NCBI RefSeq assembly: GCF_025685395.1
Contig: NZ_JAGSYA010000003.1
Location: 930,001 to 994,000, forward strand
DNA length: 64,000 nt
DNA from: Terriglobus tenax
GTDB taxonomy: Bacteria; Acidobacteriota; Terriglobia; Terriglobales; Acidobacteriaceae
Direction of reading: 5' to 3'
The notes below the pieces were generated by a model that saw only the letters and a program-made list of their open reading frames with translations, was not told the DNA's origin and made no database searches. Position 1 is the first letter of the stretch; every line of letters starts with the position of its first letter. Both the position numbers and the translations under genes were made by a program. Shown here piece by piece: positions 41,651 to 64,000 of the stretch.

Positions 41651-42271
41651 ATGGTTAGTCGCATGAGTTTGGCCATGTTGTTGATGGCACAATTCGCAGG
41701 CAACGGCGACAACGCCATCCGACACGGGATGTTGGGTATCTTTTCGCTCGAAGAGCATGGGGGCCTAAGGCAGGGATCGAACATTGTTGAGCTGTACGAC
41801 GAACTGCGTCCCTCTCTCTACGGATACCTGATCTGTCTTGGGCTGACACCGTATGAAGCTGACGACATCATCCAGGAAGCCTTCCTGAGTCTCTTCCAGC
41901 ATCTCGAAGGAAGCGGAAAAACCGAAAATCTGCGCGGCTGGGTCTTCCGCGTTGCGCATAATCTCTCCCGCAATCTCCAGCGACGCGAACGCCGTCTCGT
42001 ATCCGACACTCGCGCCGAAGGCGAACAGGCGACTCTGGAACTGCCCGATGCAGCCCTCAACCCAGAGGACAGCTATCTCTGGAAAGAACATCTGGAGCGG
42101 TTGGATATTGCCCTCGCCCAGCTCACGGAACAACAACGCCAATGCCTGCACCTACGCGCCGAAGGACTGCGTTATCGAGAGATAGCGACAGCGCTGGGCG
42201 TCGGCGTCTCTCGTGTCCCCCAACTGCTACAGCGCGCGATGGTGCGCATCATGGACGAACTCTATGGGTAA
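41651..42271 (+). CDS. ECF sigma factor (module 1)
   Basis: 206 residues. Region 2 is visible as YDELRPSLYGYLICLGL, then DDIIQEAFLSLFQHLE and RGWVFRVAHNLSRN (about 45-110), and region 4 as TEQQRQCLHLRAEGLRYREI with a helix-turn-helix (about 155-195). It is the extracytoplasmic-function type. Its stop overlaps the start of the zinc-finger anti-sigma gene. The receptor and S9 hydrolase follow in the same direction, so it probably responds to receptor occupancy, as FecI-type systems do. The start is uncertain; an ATG 12 bases later is also possible. Confidence 0.88.
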   Translation: MVSRMSLAMLLMAQFAGNGDNAIRHGMLGIFSLEEHGGLRQGSNIVELYDELRPSLYGYLICLGLTPYEADDIIQEAFLSLFQHLEGSGKTENLRGWVFRVAHNLSRNLQRRERRLVSDTRAEGEQATLELPDAALNPEDSYLWKEHLERLDIALAQLTEQQRQCLHLRAEGLRYREIATALGVGVSRVPQLLQRAMVRIMDELYG

Positions 42272-43991
42272 TCTCTTCAATAAATTCTGGAGGATGTCGC
42301 GCGAGCATGTTGGCGAAGATGTCCTCCTCAGTCTGCTGGACGGAGAACTGTCGACCTCGCAGACAAAGAACGTGCAAAAACATCTGGAACGCTGCTGGAC
42401 CTGTCGCGCGCGCCGCGATCAGCTCGAAAAGACCATTGGAAGTTTTGTGGGCTATCGGAAGCAGCTGATCAGGCCCTACATGCCCCCACCTCCGCGCGGA
42501 CGCGAGATGTTCCTTGCCAGCCTCGATGAACTAACTAGGGCCAGGAGGCGGCCCTGGTACTCAGGACCGTTGCACACTCTCCGACGATTCACCCCACAAA
42601 CTATGAGTCCAATCATTGCCAGTTCGCTCGTCGTGGGAGTGGCTGCCGTTCTTCTGCTCCTCATTTGGCAACGCGGTCGTCCACCCGTTTCAGCACACCA
42701 GCTTCTTGCGAAGGCTCAGGTGTGGGACATACAGCCCTCCCCGGCAGTGCCGTCCGTGGTCGTGTATCAGAAGGTTCAAATACGCACGAAGGCAAAGAAG
42801 CTGGAACGTGCGATCTATCGTGACGTCTCTGGAAAGCGCAAACCGCGTACAGTTGCCCTCGATGCGACCGACCGGGCGATCCAGCGGGAAGTTGAACTGG
42901 CTGGAGTGAACTGGCAGGAACCGCTCTCTGCTGCCAGCTTCCGGGATTGGCATGACCGTCAGCCTGTGTTCTCCGACAAGATCACGCGTACTGGCGACCG
43001 TCTTCTTACGCTGACTACGTCGTTGCCGTCGGGATCAGTTGCGAGTGAATCGTTGACGGTTCGCAACAACGACTTCCATCCGGTAGGGCGGACGATTGAA
43101 CTGCGGGATGACGACCGTATTGAGATAGCGGAACTCAACTATGCCGTCCTGGGCTGGAATGAAGTCAACCAGGCGCTCTTCGAGCCACTGCACTCTGGTG
43201 CTCCTGTAGTGGCAGCTATTCATCTGCCGACGGTTCTGAGTCCAGAGCAACTGGACCTTGCTGAACTACAAGCCCGTCTTGTCCTCAATCGCCTCAATGC
43301 GGACTCGACAGAGCAACTTGACTTCTCTCGGTCGAACACATCGGTTCAGATCAAGGGCATTGTGGAAAGCACACAGCGCAGGAATGCCCTGGTGGCCCAG
43401 CTCCGGCTTGTGCCGCATGTCATTCCGGCGATCTTCAGTGTCGAAGAACTCAGTGCTCCTAGAGATTCCACGTCAAGGGCCTCTGGGGTCAAGGCGTATT
43501 CCATGGTGGGGCAGCCATCTCCGCTGGAACAGTTCTTCAAGACACATGGCAGAGGTCAGGACGCAGTAAGTCAGATCTCCCAGAAACTCCTTGATGCCGC
43601 CGCTTCGGTCAGGCAGGAGAGCAGCGCAATCCACGATCTACTCGAACGCTTCTCATCGGATGCAAACCTCGGCGATTCAGGAAGAGCAGCTTTAAACGAA
43701 CTGATCCATAGTCACGCGACAAAGCTCCAGGCAGCCCTTGACGCTGAAGATCGTGTGATCGAGGACAGCGTGCCACTTGCGCATGCCGCTCGTCCGTTAT
43801 CCCCAATGGCGGAGAGTACTCCAACAGGTCTTCGAGCCTTCGGAGATCACAACATGGCTCTCTGTCGAGAGTTCATTACCGGCAGTGATCGTACGTCACG
43901 TCCTGCTGAAGCTATTGCTTCCGATCTTCTTGCTTCCTCGGCGCAGTTGCGGACGCTGCTCCGCAGTATTTCAAGCAACAGCAAAACCTGA
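42264..43991 (+). CDS. zinc-finger anti-sigma factor with large periplasmic domain (module 1)
   Basis: 575 residues from the ATG at 42264, overlapping the sigma stop; 42294 is an alternative. The cytoplasmic head carries a ZAS motif (HVGEDVLLSLLDGELS, then KHLERCWTCRAR), followed by one membrane segment (IIASSLVVGVAAVLLLLI, about 113-130) and about 440 periplasmic residues rich in Ala/Leu/Ser. The head should hold the sigma factor; the periplasmic part could read receptor signal. It is far larger than the module 2 anti-sigma, which has a coiled coil. Confidence 0.8.
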   Translation: MGNLFNKFWRMSREHVGEDVLLSLLDGELSTSQTKNVQKHLERCWTCRARRDQLEKTIGSFVGYRKQLIRPYMPPPPRGREMFLASLDELTRARRRPWYSGPLHTLRRFTPQTMSPIIASSLVVGVAAVLLLLIWQRGRPPVSAHQLLAKAQVWDIQPSPAVPSVVVYQKVQIRTKAKKLERAIYRDVSGKRKPRTVALDATDRAIQREVELAGVNWQEPLSAASFRDWHDRQPVFSDKITRTGDRLLTLTTSLPSGSVASESLTVRNNDFHPVGRTIELRDDDRIEIAELNYAVLGWNEVNQALFEPLHSGAPVVAAIHLPTVLSPEQLDLAELQARLVLNRLNADSTEQLDFSRSNTSVQIKGIVESTQRRNALVAQLRLVPHVIPAIFSVEELSAPRDSTSRASGVKAYSMVGQPSPLEQFFKTHGRGQDAVSQISQKLLDAAASVRQESSAIHDLLERFSSDANLGDSGRAALNELIHSHATKLQAALDAEDRVIEDSVPLAHAARPLSPMAESTPTGLRAFGDHNMALCREFITGSDRTSRPAEAIASDLLASSAQLRTLLRSISSNSKT

Positions 43992-44039
43992 TCCCAGGTT
44001 CCACCAGCATCGCCAAAAAACCAACAGGAGCACGACATC

Positions 44040-47000
44040 ATGCGATGGATCATTCGCTGTACCCTTGCTGTACTCTTTGCCAGTTCGCTCAGTCTGACTT
44101 CGGTTGCCCAGACCGCACAGTTTCAGGGACGAGTCACCGATCCCCAGCAACGGGTCGTGCCCGAAGCCGAAGTTCGTATCTTTAACCAGGCGACTGGCGT
44201 AGAGCGGAAGGTCAAAACGAATCAGACCGGTCTCTATACAGCGCCGTTTATTCAGCCGGGTGTATATCAGGTCTATGTGCAAGCATCCGGCTTTAGCACG
44301 GTATCGAGCTCACCATTGACGGTTAGTGTCGGGCAGACGCTCGTCTTCGACGTGCAACTCAAGGTGGGAGGCACCCAGCAGGAGGTTACCGTCGATTCAG
44401 CCTCGCCTGTCATGAATACGACCGACGCTTCTGTATCCACCGTCGTAGACAGGAAGTTCATAGAGAACCTTCCTCTGAACGGAAGAAGTTTCCAAGACCT
44501 GATCTCGATGACGCCTGGAATCGTGACGCAGAGCCCGCAGAGCTCTAGTCAGGTTGTAGGTACCGGTGGCGACTTCAGCGTGAATGGGCAGCGGACGCAG
44601 TCGAACTACTACACCGTCGATGGCGTGACAGCGAATACCGGCTCGGGCAACGGCGGTGGCGTAGGAGCAGCTGCCTCCGGGGGAGCGCTCGGAGGATCGA
44701 CGGCTCTCGGAACGACGCAGACACTGATATCGGTTGACGCGCTGCAGGAGTTTCGCGTTCAAAGCTCAACGTACTCCGCTGAATTTGGCAGATCACCCGG
44801 AGGGCAGTTTTCTCTCGGAACCCGCTCCGGCACCAACTTCCTCCACGGAAGCGCCTTCGACTATCTCCGCAATAACGTTTTCGATGCCAATGATTGGTTC
44901 AACGCGCATTACGGCAAGGCAACACCGGCTCTGCGCCAGAACGATTTCGGCGGTACAGTCGGAGGCCCGGTTTGGATCCCTCATCTTTACAGCGGTCGGA
45001 GTAAGAGCTTTTTCTTTGCCTCGTATGAAGGGCTTCGTCTGACGCAACCCACCGCCGCGACCATCCAGTATGTTCCGGACAGATTCATGCGACAGCAGGC
45101 AGTTGCTGCCATGCGCCCCATCTTGAATGCCTTTCCGCTTCCCAACGGAGTCGATTACGGGACGGCCGCGAATCCAAACCTGGCGCAGTTCATCACGACG
45201 TTCTCACTGCCCAGCACGATCAACTCGACCAGTGTCCGGATCGACCATACGCTGCGTCCTAAAGTCGCGCTGTTCTTCCGCATCGGCAACACGCCCAGTT
45301 CTACCGGCGCGAGGCCATACTTCGCTCGGACAACCACGAGTATCAATGCACAGAGCTACACCTTAGGAGCAACCGTCCAATTCTCAGATCAACTGACCAA
45401 CGAGTTCCGACTTGGATATGCACGCTCCGATTCCACACAGGTTGGGGTATTGGACACCTTCGGAGGAGCCACTCCAATCGATCTGGCAGGGGCGATGGGT
45501 GCCGGAGCCTATCCCCAGGCGCAGCCGGTGATCACAATCTCCATCGCAGGAATCGGATCACCGCTGATGACCCCGTACAACGGACGGAATTCGAGCCGCC
45601 AGTGGAACGCCGTAAACACGGTCAGCCTGCTGAAGGGAGTTCACGCGCTCAAGTTTGGTTTCGACTACCGCCACATCAAGTCACCGATTGCTCCACCGAC
45701 AGTGGAACCGTATGCCATCTTTCTCAGCACGCAGGAGGTTTTGAGTGGTGTACCAAGCCTTCCGTATGTCTATAACTTCGTTCCCGCTACGCCTCTCTTC
45801 CACCAGGCCGCCGTGTTCGCGCAGGACGAATGGCGTCTGTTGCCGCAGCTTCACCTTTCTGGAGGACTTCGCTGGGAGCTAAATCCTCCGCCAACAGAGC
45901 AACACGGTCAAGATGCCTATACGTTGTTGGGCGATATCAATGATCCCGCTTCACTCGCGCTTGCACCGCGGGGGACTCCGTTGTGGAAGACCACCTGGTA
46001 TAACTTTGCGCCGCGGTTGGGCTTGGCTTGGACGGCACACGATCAACCGGGAGCTGAAACAGTCCTTCGTGTGGGAGCCGGTGTATTCTTCGACTCCGCC
46101 AATGAAGTTGCGACCCTCGGTTATAGCGGTCTTGGATTTCGATCGTTTCAACTTCAGTCCGGTGCGCAGATTCCGTTTACCGCGAACCAACTCGTCGTTC
46201 CGATTAGGGTGACTGGACCCTACAACAGCGGGACTATCACCGCGTTTCCTTCCCATCTCCAGTTGCCCTACACGTTGCAGTGGAACGTCAGTTTGCAGCA
46301 GGCGCTTGGAAAGAATCAATCGTTCACAGTCTCCTATGTTGCGGCAGAAGGACGGCGGCTGACTGGAGTGCAACAAAAAGCGCTCGCGAAGCTCAACCCC
46401 AACTTCGGGACCGTGCAGTACTTTGCTTCAGGGCTTACTTCGAACTATCAGTCGCTGCAGGTGAAGTTTCAGCGCTCGGTGGTGAAGGGTGTCCAGGCGC
46501 TCGGGTCCTACACTTGGTCTCACACGCTGGATTTCGGCTCCAATGCGAATGCTCTGCCGCTACTGCGAGGGAATGCGGACTTCGACGTTCGCAACAATCT
46601 GCAGGGTGGGGTCAGTTGGGAACTCCCCGATGTCCACGGTCGGAGACCCGTTGCGATCTTCTTGAGCAACTGGGGAGCGGATGCGCGACTGAGTACCCGC
46701 TCTGCATTTCCCGTAACGCTTGGCGGAGCGCTTACAACCAATGTGGCCACGGGTAGCCAGTACGCCGGCGGGCTGAATGTAGTCCCAGGCATCCCGATCT
46801 ATCTCTACGGGGCGCAGTATCCCGGAGGCCGCTCCATCAACAAGGCCGCGTTCAGTCTTCCGGTCGCCGGTTCCGCCGGAGACGCTCCACGCAACTTCGT
46901 GCGAGGTTTCGGTATGACGCAGGTCAATCTGGCCCTCCGGCGCGACTTCCAGCTCCATGATGGCGTGGTCGTTCATTTTCGCGCGGAGACATTCAATCTG

Positions 47001-47159
47001 CTCAACCATCCGAACTTTGGATTCGTTGACTCGACCTACACAGACGCCACCTTTGGCCAGGCGATGAAGATGCTGAATGCGAGTCTTGGAACCGTTGCGT
47101 CGCAGTATCAACAAGGTGGAGCCCGCTCAATGCAGTTTGCGCTGAAGCTCACATTTTGA
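44040..47159 (+). CDS. Oar-like TonB-dependent receptor (module 1)
   Basis: 1039 residues with AGGAGC before the ATG. A signal peptide (to SVAQ near 24) is followed by a carboxypeptidase-regulatory-like domain (QGRVTDPQQRVVPEAEVRI, about 28-120), a plug with LPLNGRSFQDLISMTPGIV (near 141) and a beta barrel ending in ...MQFALKLTF, the aromatic end typical of outer-membrane proteins. It likely imports a specific peptide or siderophore. Module 2 has a closely related receptor. In lasso-peptide loci with isopeptidases such receptors are usual neighbours. Confidence 0.88.
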   Translation: MRWIIRCTLAVLFASSLSLTSVAQTAQFQGRVTDPQQRVVPEAEVRIFNQATGVERKVKTNQTGLYTAPFIQPGVYQVYVQASGFSTVSSSPLTVSVGQTLVFDVQLKVGGTQQEVTVDSASPVMNTTDASVSTVVDRKFIENLPLNGRSFQDLISMTPGIVTQSPQSSSQVVGTGGDFSVNGQRTQSNYYTVDGVTANTGSGNGGGVGAAASGGALGGSTALGTTQTLISVDALQEFRVQSSTYSAEFGRSPGGQFSLGTRSGTNFLHGSAFDYLRNNVFDANDWFNAHYGKATPALRQNDFGGTVGGPVWIPHLYSGRSKSFFFASYEGLRLTQPTAATIQYVPDRFMRQQAVAAMRPILNAFPLPNGVDYGTAANPNLAQFITTFSLPSTINSTSVRIDHTLRPKVALFFRIGNTPSSTGARPYFARTTTSINAQSYTLGATVQFSDQLTNEFRLGYARSDSTQVGVLDTFGGATPIDLAGAMGAGAYPQAQPVITISIAGIGSPLMTPYNGRNSSRQWNAVNTVSLLKGVHALKFGFDYRHIKSPIAPPTVEPYAIFLSTQEVLSGVPSLPYVYNFVPATPLFHQAAVFAQDEWRLLPQLHLSGGLRWELNPPPTEQHGQDAYTLLGDINDPASLALAPRGTPLWKTTWYNFAPRLGLAWTAHDQPGAETVLRVGAGVFFDSANEVATLGYSGLGFRSFQLQSGAQIPFTANQLVVPIRVTGPYNSGTITAFPSHLQLPYTLQWNVSLQQALGKNQSFTVSYVAAEGRRLTGVQQKALAKLNPNFGTVQYFASGLTSNYQSLQVKFQRSVVKGVQALGSYTWSHTLDFGSNANALPLLRGNADFDVRNNLQGGVSWELPDVHGRRPVAIFLSNWGADARLSTRSAFPVTLGGALTTNVATGSQYAGGLNVVPGIPIYLYGAQYPGGRSINKAAFSLPVAGSAGDAPRNFVRGFGMTQVNLALRRDFQLHDGVVVHFRAETFNLLNHPNFGFVDSTYTDATFGQAMKMLNASLGTVASQYQQGGARSMQFALKLTF

Positions 47160-47232
47160 CATGAGAGCACTACCTCCTCTTCGAACTAAAAGCTGACTCT
47201 CCGTCCTGCTCACAACCCCCATGGAGTTGAAG

Positions 47233-49620
47233 ATGAAGCTACGTTTGCGTCTCGTTGGGATCAGCCTGGTCGCACTTTCCCTCCTGCCTGCCAGAGGTCA
47301 AGATCACTCGTTCTCCGTCAAGGACGATATCGCCATGGTGCGTTTCAGTGAGCCACGCTCTGATCCTGGCGTCGCGGGCAGTGAGAAGGCAACACCCTCT
47401 CCAAATGGCGAGTACGTCGCGCTTGTCACGACGAAAGGCCTTCTCGCATCAGACAGGATCGAATCCGATCTATGGGTCTACCGGCTCAGGGATGTATCGA
47501 CCTTTCTTAGAGGAACACGGGCGCGGCTCCTGCCGCGCGTCATTGCCTCGATCATCTCGTATCCTCACCGCGAACAGACAACCGCGTATGCACCCGTGAT
47601 CAAGGATCTTCGGTGGTCTTCGGATGGAAAGAGTATCTACTTTCGAGGGGAAAGCGTATCGGGTGCCTATCGGATCTATGAAGCAAGGTTGGACCGGAGG
47701 GATTTGCAAGCCCTCACGCCCGTAAATCAGAGTGTGGACCGCTTTGACGTTGTGAGAAACACGATCGTATACAAAGCGTCGATCTTTCCGGAAAAGCGTG
47801 TTCGACCCAGTAACGCGATCAATTCCGACGCCCTGGTAGCGACTGGCTCGCGGATTCAGGATCTGATCCTTCCAGATCAGCTGACCACGTTGACGCCCGA
47901 GACATTTACGATTTCGACTCTGCGCTACGCAAATGCCCACTGGAGTGCGAGATCGGTCCCGGGCTATTCGGACCGGGATATGACCTACCTCTCATCCCTG
48001 TTTCCGTTTGTGCTATCCCCCACGCAGACAAAGCTCATTGCTCTTTCTCCTGTCTTGAGCGTGCCTGATGCATGGAAGCGCTATGCCCCGGCAAACGGCT
48101 TCGAACATTTGCGCCTGTCCGAGAGCGTAGACGGTCGCCTTACGAGCGCCGACAATCTGGCGCGGCCCGAACAGTTGACGTTGATAGACCTCGTGACGGG
48201 AAAAAGCACACCGCTCGCGGACGCTCCTGCGGCTCGTAGCCTTGCGTACTACCTCGATAACAGCTCCGTCACGTGGGCTGCGGACGAGAAGCGAGTCCTG
48301 GCGACAAATACATTCCTTAAACTGGAGGAGCCCGATGGGTCTGACATAACAAGGCCCTGCGCGGTTGCAAGCTTCGATCTGCCAACGCTCAAAGCTCAGT
48401 GCCTCTTCTTCGAGACGGGGGACCTCGACCCATTTGCCTTGCATGTGCTTGCCGTGTCCTTCGGCTCCACGAGCGACCAGGCCACAGTTACATTGAAGCG
48501 AGGCGTGCACGAGCAAGTGATACAGCAGTATCGTTTGCGCGAAAACGTGTGGCGTCTCATCGCATCGAGTACCGTGAGTGGCGAGAACTGTGAATCTGCG
48601 GTCTCGGTTCAACGCACCACGACCGTGAGTTGCGATCTCGAAGTGACTGTTCGACAGACCCTCAACGATCCGCCGACCCTTTGGGCGTCCAGCGCGCGAA
48701 CTGGGAAGTCCCTAAAACTATGGGACCCCAACCCCCAACTGAGCCGAATGCGTTTCGGAGAAGCGTCACGGTATGAATGGCAGGATAAAACTGGCCGAGC
48801 ATGGTCCGGCATACTCGTAAAACCCGTAGGCTACGAGGCAGGAAAGAGGTATCCCCTTGTCGTGCAGATGTACTCCTATGTGGAAGGCGAATTTTTGACC
48901 GACGGGCTTTACCCAACCGCGTTTGCGGCGAGACATCTCGCCAGCGTAGGGTTCATTGTTTTGCAGATCAAGAAGAAGCCGGACACGCTGACGGAAGCCG
49001 ATCCCCAGGTCCATCTGGAGGGCTATCGCAGCGCCATTGCAACGTTGGATGCGGCTGGAATGATCGATCGTAGTCGAGTTGGAGTGGTGGGATTCAGCTG
49101 GACCTGTTGGTATGCCATCAATGCCCTGATCAAGGATCCGAATCTTTTCGCAGCGGCGACGATAGCCGATGGGCTGGACAATAGCTACCTGCAATACCTG
49201 TTGTTTGGCGTGGGAGCCCACTCCATTCTTCGCCAGATGGAACGTATCCGGGAGACGAGTCCCTTTGGAGACGGACTCCAAAAGTGGATCGACGAGGCGC
49301 CAGGTTTCCATCTCAATCAGGTCCGATCCCCCGTCCGCATCGAGGCGATCAATCCAGGCTCGGTCCTGCAGGAGTGGGAGCTGTACGCCTCTCTCCGCAT
49401 GCAGAAGAAACCCGTCGATCTGATCTACTTCCCGCATGGGACTCATATCCATCAGAAACCACTGGAAAGACTGGAATCGCAACAAGGAAATGTGGACTGG
49501 TTTCGTTTCTGGCTGCAAGGCTATGAAGACCCCGATCCAGAAAAACGGGCTCAATATCAACGGTGGCGAGCATTGGATCGTGGGCCGATCACAACTCAAC
49601 CCGCCACTTCTTCACCGTAA
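47233..49620 (+). CDS. S9-family lasso-isopeptidase-like hydrolase (module 1)
   Basis: 795 residues from the ATG at 47233; the in-frame ATG at 47221 supplies the GGAG ribosome site, just as in module 2. A signal peptide (RLVGISLVALSLLPARGQ) is followed by an N-terminal propeller-like half and a C-terminal alpha/beta hydrolase. The nucleophile motif is GFSWTCWY, not the usual GxSxGG, and the acid lies in RIEAINPGS with Glu, then GTHIH near the end. This Ser-Glu-His spacing resembles AtxE-type lasso isopeptidases as I recall them. It probably opens the ring of an imported peptide. Confidence 0.72.
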   Translation: MKLRLRLVGISLVALSLLPARGQDHSFSVKDDIAMVRFSEPRSDPGVAGSEKATPSPNGEYVALVTTKGLLASDRIESDLWVYRLRDVSTFLRGTRARLLPRVIASIISYPHREQTTAYAPVIKDLRWSSDGKSIYFRGESVSGAYRIYEARLDRRDLQALTPVNQSVDRFDVVRNTIVYKASIFPEKRVRPSNAINSDALVATGSRIQDLILPDQLTTLTPETFTISTLRYANAHWSARSVPGYSDRDMTYLSSLFPFVLSPTQTKLIALSPVLSVPDAWKRYAPANGFEHLRLSESVDGRLTSADNLARPEQLTLIDLVTGKSTPLADAPAARSLAYYLDNSSVTWAADEKRVLATNTFLKLEEPDGSDITRPCAVASFDLPTLKAQCLFFETGDLDPFALHVLAVSFGSTSDQATVTLKRGVHEQVIQQYRLRENVWRLIASSTVSGENCESAVSVQRTTTVSCDLEVTVRQTLNDPPTLWASSARTGKSLKLWDPNPQLSRMRFGEASRYEWQDKTGRAWSGILVKPVGYEAGKRYPLVVQMYSYVEGEFLTDGLYPTAFAARHLASVGFIVLQIKKKPDTLTEADPQVHLEGYRSAIATLDAAGMIDRSRVGVVGFSWTCWYAINALIKDPNLFAAATIADGLDNSYLQYLLFGVGAHSILRQMERIRETSPFGDGLQKWIDEAPGFHLNQVRSPVRIEAINPGSVLQEWELYASLRMQKKPVDLIYFPHGTHIHQKPLERLESQQGNVDWFRFWLQGYEDPDPEKRAQYQRWRALDRGPITTQPATSSP

Positions 49621-51582: not shown

Positions 51583-51585
51583 AAC

Positions 51586-54669: not shown

Positions 54670-57600
54670 ATGAAGCGTTGCATTCTTTCTCTTGGTCTGT
54701 GTCTCACCTCTGGCCTTGCCCTATCTCAGTCGACAAACGCGACGATCAGTGGCGGTGTCGCCGATCCATCGGGCAAGCTCATTCTCGATGCCAATGTCGT
54801 CATCCAGAACGATGCGACAGGAGTTGTTTACTCCTCGAAGACCAACAGCGTTGGCATGTATCTGGTTCCGATTCTTCCCCCTGGCCACTACCACGTCCAG
54901 GTATCGAAGACCGGATTCAAGACCATCATCAAAGCCGATGTCATCCTGAATGTTCAGAGCGCCGTCGCGCTCAACTTCGTTCTGCCGGTCGGAGCGACGT
55001 CCGAGAGTGTAACCGTTGATTCCGCATCGCCTGTCATGAACACAACCGACGCTTCAGTATCTACGGTCGTGGACAGAAAGTTCGTAGAGAACCTTCCTCT
55101 GAATGGAAGGAGTTTCCAAGACCTGATCTCCATGACGCCGGGGATCGTGACGCAGAGCCCGCAGAGCACGTCGCAGGTGGTAGGGACGGGCGGCGATTTC
55201 AGCGTCAATGGGCAGCGAACGCAATCCAATTACTACACCGTGGATGGTGTCACGGCGAACATCAGTTCTGGTAATGCCGGGGGTGTCGCTGGACCTTCCA
55301 CCGGAGGCGCCCTCGCAGGCTCTACCGCCCTCGGCACGACGCAGAGCATGATTTCAGTCGATGCACTCCAGGAGTTCCGCGTCCAGAGTTCCACATATTC
55401 CGCTGCCTACGGGAGGTCACCCGGCGGGCAGTTCTCTCTTGTGACGCGCTCCGGGACAAACGTGCTCCACGGGAGCGCTTTTAACTATCTCCGCAACAAC
55501 TTCTTCGACGCCAACGACTGGTTCAACAAGTATTACGGTAAACCCACTCCCGCTGTACGCCAAAATGACTTCGGTGGCACGTTAGGCGGTCCCATCCTGA
55601 TTCCGTCGTTATATGACGGGAGGGACCGCAGCTTCTTCTTCGCCTCCTATGAAGGACTTCGGCTCAAGCAACCCACGGCCGCGACGATCCAGTATGTTCC
55701 CGATTTCTTCATGAGACAGCAGGCAGTCGCTGCCATGCGCCCCATCCTCAATGCGTTTCCGTTACCGAACGGTCTCGACTACGGGTCGTCGGCCAACCCG
55801 AGCCTTGCACAATTCATCGCCCCGTTTTCTCTCCCAAGCTCCATCGACTCGACCAGCATTCGGATCGACCACACGTTGGGTTCGAAGTTGACCCTTTTCT
55901 TCCGGGTCGGCAATACCCCCAGTTCCACGAAGAGCAGGCCGAATTTTGCTCTTGCGAACACAACAAGCAACGCACAGACCTATACCTTGGGCGCCAGCAG
56001 CCAACTCTCCGATCGCTTCACGAACGAATTCAGACTTGGGTATGCTCGCTCCGACTCCACCCAAACTGGAACATTGGATAACTTCGGAGGAGCTACGCCA
56101 ACTGATCTGGCAGCGGCGATGGGTGCAGGATCGTACCGTCAAGTCCTGCCTGTCGTCATCTTCTCGATCTCCGGAATTGGGTCTCCGCTTCTGTCCGAGT
56201 ACAACGCACGGAATGCTGGACGGCAGTGGAATCTGGTCAACACGTTGAGCGTCCTCAATCAAACGCACCGCTTCAAAATTGGTGTCGACGATCGTCATAT
56301 CAAATCGCCAATCTCGCCTCCCGACATGGAGCCCTACACCGTCTTCTCGACGACGCAACAAATCCTCAGCGGCGCACCGAGTACTCCGCTTGTCGTCCGC
56401 TTCTTGCCAGCGACTCCTCGCTTCCATCAGACGGGTGTTTTTGTGCAAGACGAATGGCGGCTGCATCCGCGGCTCAATCTTTCCCTGGGATTGCGTTGGG
56501 AATTGAATCCACCGCCGACCGAAGAGCACGGAAAGGATGCGTATACCCTCCGAGGCAACATCAATGATCCAAGCTCTCTCACCGTAGCTCCGCGCGGTAC
56601 TCCATTATGGAAGACCGGCTGGTATAACTTTGCGCCGCGGCTCGGCTTGGCATGGACGGCGCACACGCAACCCGGTGCCGAAACCATTGTGAGAGCGGGT
56701 GGCGGAGTGTTTTTTGACTCTCCGAATGAGGTCGCAACGCAGGGCTATAGCGGCCTCGGGTTTCGGGCGAACAAAATCCAGACGGGAGCTCAGGTCCCAT
56801 TCACGCCGAGCCAACTCGACATTCCGGTCACGGTGACCGCCCCCTATACGTCGGCAACGATTACAGCGTTTCCAGAGCATCTTCAACTGCCGTATACCTT
56901 GCAATGGAATCTCAGCCTGCAACAAGCGCTGGGAGCAAACCAATCGCTGACGATCTCTTATATTGGTGCGAATGGCAGACGCCTCATGGGGCTTCAACAG
57001 AAGAACTTGACGGCACTGAACGCGAACTTCGGTGCTATCCAATACTTTAGAACCGGGCTGTCCTCAAGCTATCAATCTCTCCAGGTCCAGTTCCAGCGGT
57101 CTGTGACGAAAGGCGTTCAGGCGCTTGCTTCGTATACGTGGTCACACGCTCTCGACTTCGGATCGAATGCAAGTGCGTTGCCGCTGCAACGTGGCAACGC
57201 GGACTTCGATGTCCGCAACAACTTCCAAGGTGGCCTGAGTTGGGAACTCCCAACGGTCGCGCGACATCCGTTGCTCCGCTCGGTATTGAATGACTGGGCG
57301 CTTGATCTCCGGGCCAGCACACGCAGCGCTTTCCCAGTAACGCTTGGCGGAAACCTCATCACTGATCCGACGACGGGAAGCCAATACGCTGGTGGCTTGA
57401 ACATGGTGGATGGACGTCCGACATTCCTGTCAGGGCCGCAATATCCTGGAGGGCGAGCGCTGAATAAAGCCGCCTTCAGCTTGCCGGCATCAGGGACCTC
57501 GGGCAACGCGCCGCGCAACTTTGTCCGAGGCTTCGGTTCCAATCAACTCAACCTGGCAGCTAGGCGTGAAATCAGACTCCATGATCCAGTCGTATTGCGC

Positions 57601-57783
57601 TTCCGAGCGGAGACCTTCAATTTGTTGAACCATCCGAGCTTTGGCTATGTCGACCCCACCTACACTAGCGCCACATTTGGCCAGGCGACAAAGATGCTGA
57701 ATGCAAGTCTCGGCACAGTGGCCTCGCAATATCAACAGGGCGGCGCTCGCTCCATGCAGTTCGCCGTGAAGTTGGTCTTCTAG
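54670..57783 (+). CDS. Oar-like TonB-dependent receptor (module 2)
   Basis: 1037 residues from the ATG at 54670, where the signal peptide (RCILSLGLCLTSGLALSQ) begins and GGAG lies upstream; the frame is open earlier without support. Domain order equals module 1, and DNA near 55010-55170 is almost the same as 44395-44560, around LPLNGRSFQDLISMTPGIVT. It ends MQFAVKLVF. The N-terminal domain and barrel loops differ more, consistent with a shared origin and similar but not equal ligands. Confidence 0.88.
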   Translation: MKRCILSLGLCLTSGLALSQSTNATISGGVADPSGKLILDANVVIQNDATGVVYSSKTNSVGMYLVPILPPGHYHVQVSKTGFKTIIKADVILNVQSAVALNFVLPVGATSESVTVDSASPVMNTTDASVSTVVDRKFVENLPLNGRSFQDLISMTPGIVTQSPQSTSQVVGTGGDFSVNGQRTQSNYYTVDGVTANISSGNAGGVAGPSTGGALAGSTALGTTQSMISVDALQEFRVQSSTYSAAYGRSPGGQFSLVTRSGTNVLHGSAFNYLRNNFFDANDWFNKYYGKPTPAVRQNDFGGTLGGPILIPSLYDGRDRSFFFASYEGLRLKQPTAATIQYVPDFFMRQQAVAAMRPILNAFPLPNGLDYGSSANPSLAQFIAPFSLPSSIDSTSIRIDHTLGSKLTLFFRVGNTPSSTKSRPNFALANTTSNAQTYTLGASSQLSDRFTNEFRLGYARSDSTQTGTLDNFGGATPTDLAAAMGAGSYRQVLPVVIFSISGIGSPLLSEYNARNAGRQWNLVNTLSVLNQTHRFKIGVDDRHIKSPISPPDMEPYTVFSTTQQILSGAPSTPLVVRFLPATPRFHQTGVFVQDEWRLHPRLNLSLGLRWELNPPPTEEHGKDAYTLRGNINDPSSLTVAPRGTPLWKTGWYNFAPRLGLAWTAHTQPGAETIVRAGGGVFFDSPNEVATQGYSGLGFRANKIQTGAQVPFTPSQLDIPVTVTAPYTSATITAFPEHLQLPYTLQWNLSLQQALGANQSLTISYIGANGRRLMGLQQKNLTALNANFGAIQYFRTGLSSSYQSLQVQFQRSVTKGVQALASYTWSHALDFGSNASALPLQRGNADFDVRNNFQGGLSWELPTVARHPLLRSVLNDWALDLRASTRSAFPVTLGGNLITDPTTGSQYAGGLNMVDGRPTFLSGPQYPGGRALNKAAFSLPASGTSGNAPRNFVRGFGSNQLNLAARREIRLHDPVVLRFRAETFNLLNHPSFGYVDPTYTSATFGQATKMLNASLGTVASQYQQGGARSMQFAVKLVF

Positions 57784-57857
57784 CGCCCCGCTTGCCAAAT
57801 CGACGATAGTTCCTCACTCTCCACGAACCTACGCTCCCCGAGCGATGGAGGCTTTCG

Positions 57858-60254
57858 ATGAAAGCATCGCCTTTCTGCGTTCTCATGTTGTCTCTCGTGT
57901 GGCCTATCTACTCCGCACTTTCGCAGCAGCGTGCGTTTTCTGTCGTCGATGACATTGCAATGGTCCGCTTCAGCGACCCCTCTCCAGAGGAAAGCGATGC
58001 AGCGGCGAAGAGCGCCAGTATGTCACCGGATGGAAGGCACATCGCGGTTGTAACGACGAGGGGCCTGCTCGACTCGAACCGGATCGAGTCGAGGATCTCT
58101 GTCTTTGCAGTCTCTGACATACAACGCCTTCTGCGTGATCCGCTTCAGAAGTCCATCCAGCCTCGCCTCGTCGCAACCATCGCGTCGTTTCCGCACCACG
58201 AACAGACGGTACCGTACGCACCAGTGATCAAGGATCTTCGCTGGTCAGCAAATGGAAAACTCCTCTATTTCAGAGGCGAAAGTCTCAGGGGCGCCTATCA
58301 ACTGTATCGGGCAAACACCGATGGGAGTGGGTTCCATCGTCTGACACCCGAGACCTTCAGTGTCAACCAGTTCGACATGACGAACAGTAGAGTCGTCTAC
58401 ACGTCTGCCCGAATTGGCCTCACGATCCCAGAGCGGGGCACCATCCTCAATGCAGACGCACTGGACGTAACCGGGTCCCGTCTCATCAATATTCTGTTCC
58501 CAGGGCAGATGGCATCTTATGAACCGGAAAGGTTCACCCTGTCTTTCTTCGAGAAGAACGAAAGCAAGACGGTGCCGCACCACGTCCCTGGCTTCTCAGT
58601 TGCGGAACTGTCCACGCTGCTGCACTTCCTTCCGTTTCGCGTATCGCCGGATCGACGCTATGTGCTTTTAACTGCACCGGCGGAATCTGTTCCCGACCAC
58701 TGGAGGCAGTATGATCCAGCCCCTTCCTTCGAACATCGGCGACTGAGTAGCAACGATCCTGACCTTGTCAAAGCCAATAACCCTCTTCGCCCGCGACGAT
58801 ATTCATTGATCGACCTAGCGACCGGCAAGCTCACTCCACTTCTTGATAGCCCCAATGCCTGGATCCTTGGCTATTTTGCCGATAGTAACAACGCAGCATG
58901 GGCTGACGACAGCAGCCGAGTGCTGGTCACCAACACCTTCTATCCGCAGGCGCCAGACGAGGCCAACGCTTCCGAGCAACATCCTGAACCATGCGCGGTG
59001 GCCAGTGTTGATCTGCCGAACCTCAAGCCGCGCTGTCTCTTCTTTGAAACGAAACACGCCACGTCGACTTCTGTTCATGTGGACGATGTTTCGTTTGGCC
59101 ACAACCGGGACGAGGCCCAAGTCCTGCTCCGGACGGGAGGAGCACAGTACGTGGTGAAGACATATGTGCTCCAGGGCAAGGACTGGAAACCTGTCGCAGA
59201 GGGGCCGGTCATGGATACGAAGCCGCTCACATTCGGCGCTCCCAGAACACATTCTGGATCGAAAACGCCGCCCAGAGTATTCGTCAAGCAGGGCCTTAAT
59301 GAAAGACCCACCCTCTGGGCGAAAGATCCGAACACAGGAGCGGCGCGTCAGATTTGGGACCCCAATCCTCAACTGCAACATGTGAACCTCGGCGAAGCGA
59401 GTGTCTATCACTGGAAGGATGAATCAGGCAGCGGTTGGACGGGTGGACTTGTGAAGCCTGTGTCGTACGTCGCAGGCCAACGCTATCCTCTCGTGATCCA
59501 GATGTATCAATTTCACGAAAACCAATTCCTTACCGATGGAACGGACCCGACCGCATTCGCGGCAAGGCAGCTCGCGAGCGCGGGCTTCATGGTGTTACAG
59601 ATCAGAAAGAGACCAAGCGTTCTTTCCGAAGAGGACCCCAAGGTTCACCTTGAAGCCTATCGAAGTGCCATCAAAAGCCTATCCGACGCCGGGCTGGTCG
59701 ATGCGAGCAACGTCGGCGTCGTCGGCTTTAGCTGGACTTGCTGGTATGTCATCAACGCACTCATCAAGGCTCCTCAACTCTTCCGGGCAGCGACGATCGC
59801 TGACGGACTGGATAACAGCTACATGCAATATTTGATCTTTGGGCCGGGGCCGCCGGTCACGCATGAACAGATGGATACGATTCGAGGAACGAGTCCATTT
59901 GCTGCCGGCTTGCAAAAGTGGGTCGAGGACGCCCCGGGCTTTCACCTTGATCAAGTGCAGACTCCTGTTCGCATCGAAGCCATCAACCCTTCCTCAATCC
60001 TGCAAGAGTGGGAACTGTATGCCTCCCTCGCGATGCAACACAAACCTGTCGATATGATTTATTTCCCGGCAGGAACCCATATCCACCAGAGACCGCTCGA
60101 ACGATTGGAGTCGCAGCAGGGCAACATCGATTGGCTTCGCTTTTGGATGCAAGGGTATGAAGATCCCGCGCCTCGAAAGCGAGCGCAGTACGAGCGCTGG
60201 CACATGCTAAAGGAGTCCTTGAAACGGGATCGCTCTGGTATGGGAATCGAGTAA
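57858..60254 (+). CDS. S9-family lasso-isopeptidase-like hydrolase (module 2)
   Basis: 798 residues with GGAGG before the ATG. A signal peptide is present (ending SALSQ). The catalytic part has the same GFSWTCWY motif and RIEAINPSS with Glu, then PAGTHIHQRP. Comparison with module 1 shows that the first His of PHGTHIH is not conserved (Ala here), so the catalytic His is one in THIH. It is followed by a hairpin and then, convergent, precursor peptide 2. It is the parallel of the gene at 47233. Confidence 0.72.
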   Translation: MKASPFCVLMLSLVWPIYSALSQQRAFSVVDDIAMVRFSDPSPEESDAAAKSASMSPDGRHIAVVTTRGLLDSNRIESRISVFAVSDIQRLLRDPLQKSIQPRLVATIASFPHHEQTVPYAPVIKDLRWSANGKLLYFRGESLRGAYQLYRANTDGSGFHRLTPETFSVNQFDMTNSRVVYTSARIGLTIPERGTILNADALDVTGSRLINILFPGQMASYEPERFTLSFFEKNESKTVPHHVPGFSVAELSTLLHFLPFRVSPDRRYVLLTAPAESVPDHWRQYDPAPSFEHRRLSSNDPDLVKANNPLRPRRYSLIDLATGKLTPLLDSPNAWILGYFADSNNAAWADDSSRVLVTNTFYPQAPDEANASEQHPEPCAVASVDLPNLKPRCLFFETKHATSTSVHVDDVSFGHNRDEAQVLLRTGGAQYVVKTYVLQGKDWKPVAEGPVMDTKPLTFGAPRTHSGSKTPPRVFVKQGLNERPTLWAKDPNTGAARQIWDPNPQLQHVNLGEASVYHWKDESGSGWTGGLVKPVSYVAGQRYPLVIQMYQFHENQFLTDGTDPTAFAARQLASAGFMVLQIRKRPSVLSEEDPKVHLEAYRSAIKSLSDAGLVDASNVGVVGFSWTCWYVINALIKAPQLFRAATIADGLDNSYMQYLIFGPGPPVTHEQMDTIRGTSPFAAGLQKWVEDAPGFHLDQVQTPVRIEAINPSSILQEWELYASLAMQHKPVDMIYFPAGTHIHQRPLERLESQQGNIDWLRFWMQGYEDPAPRKRAQYERWHMLKESLKRDRSGMGIE

Positions 60255-60334: not shown

Positions 60335-60469
60335 CTACTCGTCGGCTTGGTAGGCAGGACCATTGGTGAAGAAGACGCTGCCCATCTCTTGCTGCCCTGC
60401 GCCTTTCTGATTCTTGATCGCAGAGACAGCACGGAAAGTACCGGTGATTTGCGGACAAACGTAACGCAT
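60335..60469 (-). CDS. putative lasso-like RiPP precursor peptide 2
   Basis: 44 residues from an ATG with a strong ribosome site (GAGAGG, nine bases before). Y3-V-C-P6 then I8 and G10-T-F12 match the Y-x-x-P-x-L...G-x-F leader motif read by lasso RRE proteins, though spacing is shorter by two. The end is T35-N-G37-P-A-Y-Q-A-D-E44. A T two residues before G37 fits the lasso cleavage rule, but a core from G37 has only eight residues and no tail; E28 could instead close a ring in a longer core. It lies 3' of the cyclase gene on the same strand. Confidence 0.65.
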   Translation of the reverse strand: MRYVCPQITGTFRAVSAIKNQKGAGQQEMGSVFFTNGPAYQADE

Positions 60470-60594: not shown

Positions 60595-62463
60595 TCAAGG
60601 GCGAAGCAGAGACTCTTGGCAGTCACTTGCTTTCAGCCAGAGCTCATATGCGATCGTTCTCAAAAGTGGCTGATACCATTCCGCACTCCCTGCTGCGGTA
60701 CGCTTCAGTTCATCGAGCAATGCAGTCACATCCACGAGCCCTCGACGACCGATCTCGGAAGACTCCAGGACATGCTGAAGCTTGTGATAGGCCTGACCTA
60801 TCGCATTCAAAGGGGCGCGAAGTTGATACGCTTTGCGTCGCCGTTCCAGAATCTCGGGTGGGACGATCGAGCGCAGGGAGCGCCGCATCAAAGACCGCCG
60901 CCTTCCTGGCCGCAGCAACTGCTCGCGCGGAATGCTAAACAGATAGTTCACCAGATCTTTATCGAGCATGGGATATAGGTATTCCGGTCGGAACAGAACT
61001 TGCGGTATCGCATGCGGAAGACCCTCCAGAACGGAGGACCAGGTGGATGCATTGACCAGACAATGGGGAGCGACTCCGAGCCGGCGATGGGTCATTCCTC
61101 GAGGTCCGACCGAATCCTGAACGTGACGGCGAAGCCGGAATGACATCCACGGCGGCAGCTTGCGAGAAGGCGAGTTCCTCTGCAGATACAAGCGGTGGGT
61201 GTAGAGAGCCGTCTCGCAGAGGGTGAAGATGATTGGGTTTCGGTCAACGAGAGACCATCGTAGGGATTGGGAAATGAGCCTACGAAGATCTCCCGAAACG
61301 AGATGGTCCGCAAGTTCGGGGAGCGGGTTCGGAACGCCTCCCATGACCTCATCTCCACCAATCCCGGACAGGAGGCTCCTATATCCCTTTTGCGAAACGA
61401 GCCGGAATAGCTTGCGTTCCTGCGTGACGGAGAAGCTGTCGGCCCCTGGCACGCGATAGACTCCATCGTCAACATAAGGCGGATCAAACGTTCGCTGAGA
61501 AAAGGCGTTATTGATATGAATTCCTGCTTTGCCGCGACGAGCCTCGGTGAGGGTGAAGTATGGCCTCTCGTTCAGAGAGGCCTCGGAGTCGTCGAAATAC
61601 GAAAGTGTATCGAGGATCTCCGCGTGAGGATCGGCAGCACGGCGAAGACAGTCGGACATACAGACAATCGAGGTCGAATCCATTCCCCCACTCAGTTGCG
61701 CAAGTATCGGCGCACCCGGTCCTGTACGCCGCGTGACGGCCTGCCCGAATAAGGCGAGAAAATGTTCCTCATACTCTGCATCGTGCTTGTATCGAGTTGT
61801 GCCGGTGGTCACGGGGTTCCAATGGGTACGCCGAATCATCCCGCGGTGGCCGAAGGCAATGGATTGTCCGGGGAGAACGGAAAAGATTCCCTCATAGGGA
61901 GTGAGATCTCCGATCGGGAGGTGGGCCAGGTAGGAGGCAGCATACGGTTCCGAGAGCCGAACGTCTCCCTCTGCGGACAGGAACGGTTCAAGATACGTGG
62001 ACCATAGAACTCGGTGAGGTAACTGCTGGTAGTAGAGCGTTCTGCTTCCTGCGTGGTCTCGCGCAAGAAAGAGTCTCTGATCTCTCGTGGACCACAGCGC
62101 CATGGCCCAATCGCCGGTGAAGCGCTGGAAACAGTTTTCTCCCCAGTGCTCGAAGGCTGCCAGCACGATCTCGGAATCGGAACGATCGACAGAATTGATT
62201 CCAAGCTCACGCGCAAGTTCTTGGTAGTTGTCCAAACGTCCATCAAAGCCGAGGATGTTCCCGCGGATGTCGGCGGAAGGGCCAGCATCCATCGCGGAAC
62301 GTTCATGACTGATATAGGGCTGAACGCACATGGCCAACCGGCCGCTCATATAGACCTTGCCCGTGGCCGTGGCGAACCGCTCGGTCGAAAGCGAGAGATG
62401 GCGTAACTCGGACTCGGAGGCGAACGCTTCCGGATCATGCAACAACCCCAGCAGAATGCTCAT
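60595..62463 (-). CDS. asparagine-synthetase-like lasso cyclase (C protein)
   Basis: 622 residues. The C-terminal synthetase domain shows the PP-loop LAQLSGGMDSTSIV (near 245) and LLSGIGGDEVMGG (near 362), which activate a carboxylate with ATP. The N-terminal glutaminase-like part starts MSILLGLLHD and lacks the Cys2 needed to use glutamine, so it is not a true asparagine synthetase and fits the lasso C family that makes the macrolactam. It starts 11 bases after the B2 gene. The tail to 60595 shows no odd features. Confidence 0.85.
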   Translation of the reverse strand: MSILLGLLHDPEAFASESELRHLSLSTERFATATGKVYMSGRLAMCVQPYISHERSAMDAGPSADIRGNILGFDGRLDNYQELARELGINSVDRSDSEIVLAAFEHWGENCFQRFTGDWAMALWSTRDQRLFLARDHAGSRTLYYQQLPHRVLWSTYLEPFLSAEGDVRLSEPYAASYLAHLPIGDLTPYEGIFSVLPGQSIAFGHRGMIRRTHWNPVTTGTTRYKHDAEYEEHFLALFGQAVTRRTGPGAPILAQLSGGMDSTSIVCMSDCLRRAADPHAEILDTLSYFDDSEASLNERPYFTLTEARRGKAGIHINNAFSQRTFDPPYVDDGVYRVPGADSFSVTQERKLFRLVSQKGYRSLLSGIGGDEVMGGVPNPLPELADHLVSGDLRRLISQSLRWSLVDRNPIIFTLCETALYTHRLYLQRNSPSRKLPPWMSFRLRRHVQDSVGPRGMTHRRLGVAPHCLVNASTWSSVLEGLPHAIPQVLFRPEYLYPMLDKDLVNYLFSIPREQLLRPGRRRSLMRRSLRSIVPPEILERRRKAYQLRAPLNAIGQAYHKLQHVLESSEIGRRGLVDVTALLDELKRTAAGSAEWYQPLLRTIAYELWLKASDCQESLLRP

Positions 62464-62474
62464 GGCGACCTCGC

Positions 62475-62885
62475 TTAGCAGCGCTCCAGCACTTCAAACA
62501 TCTCCGTGATGTAAGGCCTATCGTTGACGACTCGACCCTCAACTTCCACCCAGGCATGGGATTGGAATGGAAGGAGCTGTGCGCCGATGACCAACTCTGC
62601 GTCCCAGCTATAGCGGCGCAGAAGGACAGCCAGGGCAGCCGAACGTTGCAGGCACAGCACACGTTTGAAATAGAAGACACAGGCAAGATCCATCGCATGG
62701 GATAACATGCTGTCGTTCTGTAGTGCCCTGGATGTGTGCCGTATCGTCTGCGCCCGAACGACGGTGTGAACTCTCTGAAATCCGCGGGCGCGCATGAGCC
62801 AATCGAAATAGGCCAACAGCAGCCAGCTCTCAACAACCCGTCGTCTCATGACTCGCCTCCTGATGTTCTCGCACAGTGCATGCAT
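62475..62885 (-). CDS. transglutaminase-like lasso leader peptidase (B2)
   Basis: 136 residues. The pattern CLQRSAALAVLLRR (Cys near 86) and QSHAWVEVEGRVVND (His near 117, Asp near 127) gives the Cys-His-Asp triad of the lasso B2/Transglut_core3 proteases that remove the leader. No RRE (B1) domain is fused to it, so a separate B1 gene is expected; none is seen in the window and it could lie to the right. Gene order kinase-B2-C-precursor with tight spacing suggests one operon. Confidence 0.82.
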   Translation of the reverse strand: MHALCENIRRRVMRRRVVESWLLLAYFDWLMRARGFQRVHTVVRAQTIRHTSRALQNDSMLSHAMDLACVFYFKRVLCLQRSAALAVLLRRYSWDAELVIGAQLLPFQSHAWVEVEGRVVNDRPYITEMFEVLERC

Positions 62886-62925
62886 AGAACTCGTGTACGA
62901 CCTTGCCGACGAAGACCCTTCGCAA

Positions 62926-64000
62926 CTAACAGCGCAAGCGCCTTAACAACGCAGGTTCCCGAGCCGCTCGATCCATATGCCGCGCAATCGCGCGCACGTA
63001 GGCCTGGCGTCTTGGATCGTCCCGCAAATGCGTCCGGAGCCAGTCTCCCCGGCCCAGGATGGATGATGCAGCGGCAATCATGGGCGCACACGCGAAGCCT
63101 TCATCGACTGCTCTTACGTCGAGTATTTTGCCTAAAGCTCCCCGATACACCTGTCGAAGGCATGCATCACGAGACGACTTTAGGGAGGGACAGTCGACTT
63201 GGTTCAGAAGCAAGATGTGTTCAAAGGTCACGAGCGGACTGCCCACGTAGGCTTCACTCCAGTCGATAAACACGCAACGGCCATCCGCGACGAGGATATT
63301 GCCGAGATTCATATCGCCGTGAAGAACCGTTGGCGGAAGGCCGAGCTGCTCCATGTGACCGCAAACGTCTTCGAAGATTCTCCGGAGTTCACAAAGCCTG
63401 CTTGCCCCAAGACGCGGCACCTTGGTTGAGGTTTGCAAAGACATTGCTTCGTCGATGTAGGCGAAGAGCGTTTCTGCTTTCGCTCGCAGGACATGCGTTC
63501 CGTGGTCGCATGCACCGACGGCAAATAACGCCTGCTCCGATCCCACCGTGTTCATCTGGAGCGCGGCCAGAGACTTCACCGCTCCCCGCAGTACATGCCA
63601 GATACCGGTCGCCTCGGTCGGCAGAGCCCTGCGAACACTGCCCTGACCGCGCATCATCCAGGCATTCCACTCTGGGATCTCCGCCACGACTTCAGGAACA
63701 TGGCCCGCGCAAAGCCTAGACAATAGTGACGTGATGTTGCGCTCATGAAGGTTGGGCGCTCCGGTCGCTTTTAGCCAATAGTCGCAACCATCCTGCGTCC
63801 GAAATCGGAGCAGCGTGAAAGCTCCTCCAGCGTTGTGCTGCTCGATATCAGCCTTCGACGACAGTCTTCTCCCCGTCGCAGTCTCCAGCCACGCAATGGC
63901 TCTATCAATCCAACCGATCTCAGTGAAAGGGCTTCGTACAGTACCGCGGAGCATGTCCTGGAACAAACTGCGCCCCTCTTCGGATAGCTCGTCACGCCGA
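62926..64000 (-). CDS. APH-fold phosphotransferase (kinase), cut by right edge
   Basis: The frame is still open at the right edge, so the start is unknown; at least 346 residues are present. The Brenner motif VLHGDMNLGNILV and the metal-binding FIDWSEAY (C-terminal half) are those of the aminoglycoside/choline phosphotransferase family. It precedes B2 by 40 bases on the same strand and so appears to be part of the RiPP operon, perhaps phosphorylating the peptide or giving self-protection. It is not the HPr-kinase type known from other lasso loci. The role is inferred. Confidence 0.75.
   Translation of the reverse strand, partial: RRDELSEEGRSLFQDMLRGTVRSPFTEIGWIDRAIAWLETATGRRLSSKADIEQHNAGGAFTLLRFRTQDGCDYWLKATGAPNLHERNITSLLSRLCAGHVPEVVAEIPEWNAWMMRGQGSVRRALPTEATGIWHVLRGAVKSLAALQMNTVGSEQALFAVGACDHGTHVLRAKAETLFAYIDEAMSLQTSTKVPRLGASRLCELRRIFEDVCGHMEQLGLPPTVLHGDMNLGNILVADGRCVFIDWSEAYVGSPLVTFEHILLLNQVDCPSLKSSRDACLRQVYRGALGKILDVRAVDEGFACAPMIAAASSILGRGDWLRTHLRDDPRRQAYVRAIARHMDRAAREPALLRRLRC

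Follow-up and report, generated by a model that had tools for sequence, protein, structure and literature searches.

One synthetase and two receptor modules in a lasso-type locus of Terriglobus tenax: a possible shift of the ring amine to an internal lysine in Acidobacteriota

Why genes for making one lasso-type peptide should stand beside two sets of genes for sensing, uptake and degradation is the question raised by a locus of the acidobacterium Terriglobus tenax, located in bases 930001-994000 of contig C3 (NZ_JAGSYA010000003.1) of a 4.36 Mb genome in four contigs. This whole stretch of 64,000 nucleotides is here called the window, and positions are counted from its first letter. The original prediction for it, made from the letters alone, held that a single synthetase may serve two peptides, a separate receptor and isopeptidase being assigned to each. 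All searches, trees and counts presented here are comparisons of sequences and predicted structures, from which we infer product and function, and by these measures the window carries a lasso-type locus for a ribosomally synthesized and post-translationally modified peptide (RiPP). Our most far-reaching reading is tentative, held with a confidence that falls a little short of even: in a whole clade of acidobacterial lasso-type cyclases, the ring amine may no longer be that of the N-terminus but that of an internal lysine side chain, with dedicated AtxE2-like hydrolases opening the bond and receptor-only relatives listening.

In line with the original prediction, genes for an extracytoplasmic function (ECF) sigma factor, an anti-sigma factor, an outer-membrane receptor and an S9 hydrolase follow one another in this order twice on the + strand, at 41651-49620 (module 1) and at 52604-60254 (module 2). 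After module 2, the single cyclase, leader protease and kinase that had been claimed were all found on the - strand, namely the lasso-type cyclase C (60595-62463), B2 (62475-62885) and the kinase K (62926-64317, with 62926-64000 inside the window), which crosses the right edge. The profile search proposed for the sequence further to the right retrieved B1, a PqqD-family protein (64314-64649, - strand), just beyond the window. A precursor-like frame stands convergent behind each of the two hydrolases, as had also been claimed. Precursor 2 (60335-60469, - strand) is intact and encodes 44 amino acids, with a leader to Lys(-1) and a 25-residue core that holds Lys3, Glu9 and the tail AYQADE, but the first frame (49698-49820, - strand) is a remnant in which leader and core are readable and the start codon and ribosome site are missing. 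In the genome as a whole, C gave a single match at 1e-20, with three more Asn_synthase matches being weak (at most 30 bits), one B2 lay above the Pfam cut-off, and two precursor matches were found, a third at E 1.6 being attributable to chance.

Three outcomes had been named beforehand as speaking against a lasso-type locus, namely hydrolases grouping with ordinary dipeptidyl peptidases, a cyclase grouping with true asparagine synthetases, and a peptide without conservation in related loci; none of them was observed. The hydrolases S9_1 (47221-49620) and S9_2 (57858-60254) matched AtxE2 at 8e-28 and 1.8e-25, respectively, versus 1e-12 for the dipeptidyl peptidase 5jrk, and AtxE2 was the nearest solved structure in the PDB to both. 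Similarly, they scored 178.3 and 184.6 bits with the lasso_peptidase model NF033523, compared to 20 and 16 bits with Dpp5, although both values lie under the equivalog cut-off of 400, and both proteins are here called AtxE2-like isopeptidase candidates. On these matches and scores, an ordinary dipeptidyl peptidase was rejected for both hydrolases. The serine-hydrolase residues Ser626 and His742 were invariant in 81/81 aligned S9 homologues; the acid of the triad was not located. With regard to C, which starts with Met-Ser, lacks Cys2 and carries an SGGMDS motif, the best NCBIfam model was the lasso cyclase NF033535 (198.6 bits, under its strict cut-off of 525); since asparagine synthetase reached 137 bits, an ordinary enzyme of that kind was also rejected. 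B2 passed the lasso-family model NF033537 (79.3 bits, cut-off 33), and B1 passed PF05402 (51.7 bits, cut-off 23.4), with 39.5 bits for NF033530 lying under the cut-off of 70. Furthermore, precursor 2 and its family share the lasso leader signature YxxPx[LIV] with Ile/Val(-2).

In order to place the locus among its relatives, C was searched against 200 genomes of the same family, and precursors were collected with an iterated profile seeded by precursor 2; 33 neighbourhoods and 16 further regions were fetched, and a scan of named genomes yielded 61 loci, of which 60 carry acidobacterial titles and one is from Fischerella. A cyclase match at 1e-20 was present in 97/200 genomes, the weaker ones probably being other asparagine-synthetase-type proteins. 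For matches of at least about 200 bits, most of which were fetched, B2 adjoins the cyclase where the contig allows. The synteny that the original prediction had suggested looking for recurs in other Acidobacteriota, in the order B1, kinase, often prolyl oligopeptidase, B2, C and one to four precursors, facing S9, receptor, anti-sigma and sigma. Among 82 distinct C loci, a precursor with a convergent S9 gene within 1.5 kb was found in 66, K in 59, prolyl oligopeptidase in 38 and B1 in 62, such counts being lowered by contig ends. Two or more precursors beside one locus were present in 27/82, and nine loci have two C genes. In loci with tandem cyclase genes (L131, L132, L137, L140, L143-L146), no kinase was found and the parsed tails end in Y.DWE; a second ring or a second function is possible for the extra cyclase. 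The prolyl oligopeptidase gene lies between K and B2 in many loci (L106-L114, L119 and others), that of L109 consisting of Peptidase_S9_N and S9, and is missing from the window's cluster.

The precursor profile returned 125 matches, 107 of them unique after parsing, with two more missed by the parser. Parsing accepted only leaders that were 16 or 17 residues long and had I, V or L at -2, and the leaders so obtained carry Y-x-x-P-x-[LIV], their last two residues being Ile/Val(-2)-x(-1), with the Tyr distance being 17 residues in 100/107 and 16 in 7. Core residue +1 was G in 44, S in 30 and A in 10, which amounts to G/S/A in 84/107. The lysine pattern was counted in 104 unique precursors, including precursor 1, with three canonical precursors of G050 assigned to the outgroup. 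Left out of these counts were L152 and one L132 match, both of which had been missed by the parser and fit the lysine spacing by eye, as well as the precursor of G117/L115 and the second copy of it with a longer spacer, in both of which Lys-x5-Asp is recognisable by eye. No precursor was found in G106.

When lysine was sought within the first 12 core residues, 102 of the 104 precursors held a Lys at core 2-9 with Asp/Glu at K+6 to K+8, as did 69/71 representatives with less than 0.6 similarity. Cores shuffled in 2000 rounds with the last six residues held in place gave this pattern in a mean of 19.6 +/- 3.9 and a maximum of 35, and of 15 other residues substituted for K the best, G, reached 48. 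A ring counted from Lys would comprise 7 residues in 51 precursors, 8 in 38, 9 in 13 and 6 in 2 (standard deviation 0.73), whereas the same acid counted from +1 falls at positions 8 to 16 (standard deviation 1.95). Any Asp/Glu at +7 to +9 from the cleavage site, represented by Glu9 in precursor 2, was present in 29/104. The ring lysine is never residue +1, and the spacer before it is variable and never zero. This contrasted with 14 outgroup precursors from eight loci (L188-L195; seven from other families of the phylum and one G050), in which G/A at +1 and D/E at +7 to +9 occurred in 14/14 and the lysine pattern in 1/14. Six cyclase positions, including L254 preceding SGGxDS and E372 in GGDE, differ between 87 lysine-side and 9 other sequences; since only one clade was compared, they may reflect mere ancestry.

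Because the Lys-acid spacing is kept while the canonical spacing from +1 is mostly absent, the ring probably closes on the lysine, be it through the side chain or with lysine as residue 1 after extra trimming. Known lasso peptides have rings of 7-9 residues, and the ring sizes counted from Lys would suit a product in which cleavage by B2, or by another protease, falls immediately ahead of the Lys, so that C forms an ordinary alpha-amine ring of 7, 8 or 9 residues. For precursor 2, the calculated monoisotopic mass of a cyclised product is 2655.166 with a core that begins after Ile-Lys and 2413.064 with one that begins at Lys, each phosphate adding 79.966. Metanodin begins with Asn1 (PMC12670498), which indicates that a first residue need not be small. 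Even so, we regard this lysine-first product as doubtful, as the leader end and the Tyr distance of 17 are kept, G/S/A persists at +1 as if the usual cut were still made, and the spacer preceding Lys varies but is never empty; together, these features favour closure through the lysine side chain. A ring drawn canonically from +1, with lysine serving for recognition only, would agree with a cleavage site and a +1 residue that both appear canonical. However, such a ring would be unusually large and variable, spanning 8 to 16 residues, it would leave the tighter spacing from Lys aside, and it would depart from the outgroups, which keep the acid at 7-9 throughout; we consider it very improbable.

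The C-terminal end of the precursors was compared with the presence of K, which consists of an N-terminal domain and an APH/choline-kinase fold; the APH Pfam match is above cut-off, the AlphaFold2 (AF2) model has a pLDDT (predicted local distance difference test) of 89.6, and the Foldseek and VIA matches cover mainly residues 127-460. For the N-terminal part, a Nudix-like look was no more than an impression and led to no assignment. A tail of the form Y..DE was present in 71/73 precursors with a kinase gene versus 0/22 without one, and Ser/Thr at Tyr-4/-5 in 73/73 versus 10/22; in precursor 2 this residue is a Thr at Tyr-5. The lasso tailoring kinases PadeK and BsfK are HPr-kinase-like. LxmK is a Ser/Thr kinase in lanthipeptide making. 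In the LxmKY dehydratase of lexapeptide (9dk1-9dk3), it shares 14-15% identity with K, and no dehydratase partner was seen in the present locus.

With regard to the two modules, their receptors are 71% and their hydrolases 52% identical, the sigma factors 27% identical over 142 residues, and the anti-sigma factors gave no match to one another at E 1e-3. These identities, together with separate placement in the trees, led us to reject a recent duplication in place. Receptor 1 (rec1, 44040-47159; CarboxypepD_reg, plug and barrel, OMP_b-brl_4 467 bits) is the sister of the receptor of Edaphobacter aggregans DSM 19364 (L100) with support 1.0, and S9_1 shares a clade with the hydrolases of L100 and of Granulicella aggregans (L102, L103), also with support 1.0. 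Receptor 2 (54598-57783; OMP_b-brl_4 466 bits), in turn, groups with L099, G188 and oG194, and S9_2 with L099 and G188, with support 0.98 in both cases. We take receptors with CarboxypepD_reg and an OMP_b-brl_4 barrel to be Oar-like. For sig1 (41651-42271; Sigma70_r2 and r4_2), the sole match at 1e-8 among the fetched loci was the stand-alone module oG140 (39%), and for asig1 (42213-43991; NF052375 and a weak zf-HC2 below cut-off; the true start is probably later than the listed GTG), matches at 1e-8 were confined to the stand-alone modules oG140 (38%) and oG066 (41%). Conversely, the three best matches of sig2 (52604-53272, with its Pfam domains; 54-59% identical) all lie in complete loci of relatives, and asig2 (53287-54570; RskA_C at cut-off) is of the type found there. 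Precursor 1 resembles the L100 precursor and has intact homologues in relatives, whose shared start region and ribosome site are absent from it; upstream of its core, no in-frame ATG, GTG or TTG with a Shine-Dalgarno-like stretch was found, and the leader Tyr is missing.

Modules of this kind also occur elsewhere. A close S9 relative was found in 29/200 genomes, six of which have no cyclase match of at least 100 bits (G054, G066, G113, G146, G192, G194). As the S9 genes of G054, G113, G146 and G192 lie on contigs of 5-12 kb and three of these genomes are 65-87% complete, a synthetase may have been missed there, whereas G066 and G194 are 99% complete, and G194, a single contig from the same genus, has two receptor/S9 modules and no cyclase. 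G140 and G165 contain an additional S9/receptor/regulator module, and no synthetase genes accompany it along the stretch examined; in G183 (contig C3; L079, L168), the cyclase match is truncated, no precursor was found, and a complete module lies about 30 kb away. On the stretches examined, some of which end near the S9 gene, no convincing precursor was detected beside stand-alone modules except that of G117. Strain ZG23-2 has a second precursor closely resembling the first (L115:11818-12078, L179:12271-12588); it adjoins an S9 gene that is broken and lies some 31 kb away from the cyclase, and the cyclase frame also contains a stop. Receiver-only carriage recurs, as modules without a synthetase are present in several genomes, and module 1, which by its sequence relationships fits this pattern, may be read as a receiver for the peptide of a relative.

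Two other accounts of module 1 have to be weighed against this. Two complete peptides made by one synthetase, as originally proposed, would match the two precursor-like frames, receptors and hydrolases in a genome with a single C and a single B2, and also the loci elsewhere with at least two precursors, although nine loci have two C genes. This part of the proposal, the two modules and the one synthetase, stands; however, precursor 1 lacks a start codon preceded by a ribosome site, and the regulators of module 1, which had been taken for part of a complete system, differ from those of module 2 and have their nearest relatives in modules without a synthetase, all of which makes the two-peptide account improbable. 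Alternatively, module 1 could be a decaying leftover without function, as the broken precursor and the absence of matching synthetase genes might indicate. Yet the ratio of nonsynonymous to synonymous substitutions (dN/dS) versus L100 was 0.11 for rec1 and 0.14 for S9_1, both frames are open, and the Ser and His are conserved; an average over a dS of 1.1 leaves room for recent loss, and we rate this account as rather unlikely.

A mechanism that reconciles these observations can be outlined as follows. From precursor 2 (60335-60469), the single synthetase (B1, kinase, B2 and C) would produce one peptide. B1 and B2 would cleave behind the conserved Ile(-2)-x(-1) and so release the core from its leader, C would join the internal lysine, most likely via its side chain, to the Asp/Glu ending a stretch of 7-9 residues (Lys3-Glu9 in this case), and K would phosphorylate a Ser/Thr close to the conserved C-terminal tail. 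Receptor 2 would import the product, anti-sigma 2 would relay the signal to sigma 2, and hydrolase 2 would open the peptide. Module 1 would be a second receiver, tuned to a related peptide of Edaphobacter aggregans-type bacteria, that keeps its receptor and hydrolase genes under purifying selection, its own precursor no longer being made. Taken as a whole (one synthetase, one lysine-ringed phosphorylated peptide, module 2 its own and module 1 a receiver), we give this explanation about an even chance.

A number of results weigh against it. The peptide of the window could itself close a canonical Asn1-Glu9 ring, and the lysine reading therefore rests on the family; the profile that defined this family started from a peptide with a lysine and could be biased towards similar ones, and it found no precursor in 7/82 distinct C loci. 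Furthermore, the regularity of the leaders is partly by construction, since the parser fixed their length and the -2 residue, and the node in the cyclase tree at which lysine-type loci group together, apart from the outgroups, has a support of 0.67. As to module 1, S9_1 pairs with L100 alone at a support of just 0.28, a less strict threshold gives asig1 a partial match, 28% identical, within the complete locus L106, and precursor 1 shows a dN/dS of 0.28 versus L100 over 38 codons, so that its loss is recent or translation continues from a poor start. The genes of the window's own locus also differ in their nearest relatives, K and B2 going with Edaphobacter/Granulicella aggregans, and C and sig2 with L099. 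Finally, no exporter was identified.

The surroundings of the locus provided some additional observations. Between the modules, a HipA-like gene (49976-51235; HipA_C 163 bits) and two adjoining helix-turn-helix (HTH) genes (51232-51666 and 51673-52023; HTH_31 and HTH_3), all on the - strand, are probably outside the peptide system; the second of these HTH genes (51673-52023) has a 69% match that adjoins the sigma gene in Silvibacterium bohemicum (G141a/L117). A spaced-word screen upstream of the sig, rec and B1 genes showed no clear shared ECF promoter. A conserved ORF of 520 amino acids (X520; window 64773-66335, L007:11773-13335) adjoins B1 in the closer relatives of the window; it has no Pfam or NCBIfam match, and its AF2 model has a pLDDT of only 53.5. 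Further to the right (L007:15319-18998), ORFs that by reading alone resemble copper handling include multicopper-oxidase-like, outer-membrane efflux-like and cytochrome-like frames. To the left of the modules (13463-41266), the region resembles defence or mobile DNA and contains two GmrSD-type genes, DUF4007, SIR2_2, a protein kinase-helicase fusion adjoining a PLD gene, DNA polymerase III alpha, RecA-like genes and ParB; next to module 1 stands an ORF whose NikA-like match is slightly under cut-off.

To our knowledge, all lasso peptides characterised so far use the N-terminal amine for ring closure, so that the position of the ring is tied to leader cleavage. If the proposal is correct, an internal-lysine clade would free the N-terminus, allow N-terminal extensions and supply cyclases for lysine macrolactams, the products being lasso-like, with a free N-terminal extension and a Lys-Asp/Glu isopeptide bond. 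Because the kinase gene and the tail site are closely paired, the idea of another type of lasso kinase, one with an APH fold, becomes testable. Receiver-only modules, in turn, bear on the role of isopeptidase-type lasso peptides, which could be shared carriers or signals rather than private antibiotics.

This kind of locus is partly noted before in Acidobacteriaceae. In PMC10368454, precursors with Ile/Val(-2) and a kinase or phosphotransferase are already reported in silico for this family, one being cited from strain TAA 166, the source of loci L105 and L106; an antiSMASH lasso cluster is given for Granulicella sp. WH15 in PMC7074687. In the text covered by searches of the open-access literature on acidobacterial lasso peptides, lysine-closed rings and isopeptidase loci (including passages of PMC9266682, PMC7074687, PMC13352647 and PMC11006600), neither the arrangement nor the lysine is described, and these searches likewise turned up no report of a lysine rule, of a kinase paired with a tail site or of receiver modules, although supplementary figures of Acidobacteriaceae precursors in PMC10368454 may show the lysine.

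In comparison with known systems, alphaproteobacterial isopeptidase lasso loci place a receptor and sigma/anti-sigma genes beside the biosynthetic operon (PMC9266682, PMC11006600). The astexin, sphingopyxin and benenodin loci resemble the window in having B1/B2/C, an AtxE2-type isopeptidase, an outer-membrane receptor and sigma/anti-sigma genes. The window differs from them in its Oar-like receptor (CarboxypepD_reg, OMP_b-brl_4) and in hydrolases under the AtxE2 equivalog cut-off, and its family differs in the Ile/Val(-2) leaders, the lysine-anchored core, the APH-type kinase and the stand-alone receiver modules. Metanodin (PMC12670498) is likewise a lasso peptide whose first residue is other than G/A/S/C, with Asn1 and Thr(-2); a lysine pattern is not mentioned in the text available of its description. 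The bsf system of Bradymonadales (BsfA, PMC10368454) shares a leader with Tyr(-17), Pro(-14), Leu(-12) and Ile(-2), a kinase and B1 with B2. In the text covered of that paper, there is no mention of a conserved lysine in the core or of an isopeptidase, and BsfA is unlike the window family in its Gly1-Asp8 ring and in an HPr-kinase-like enzyme that acts on Ser3.

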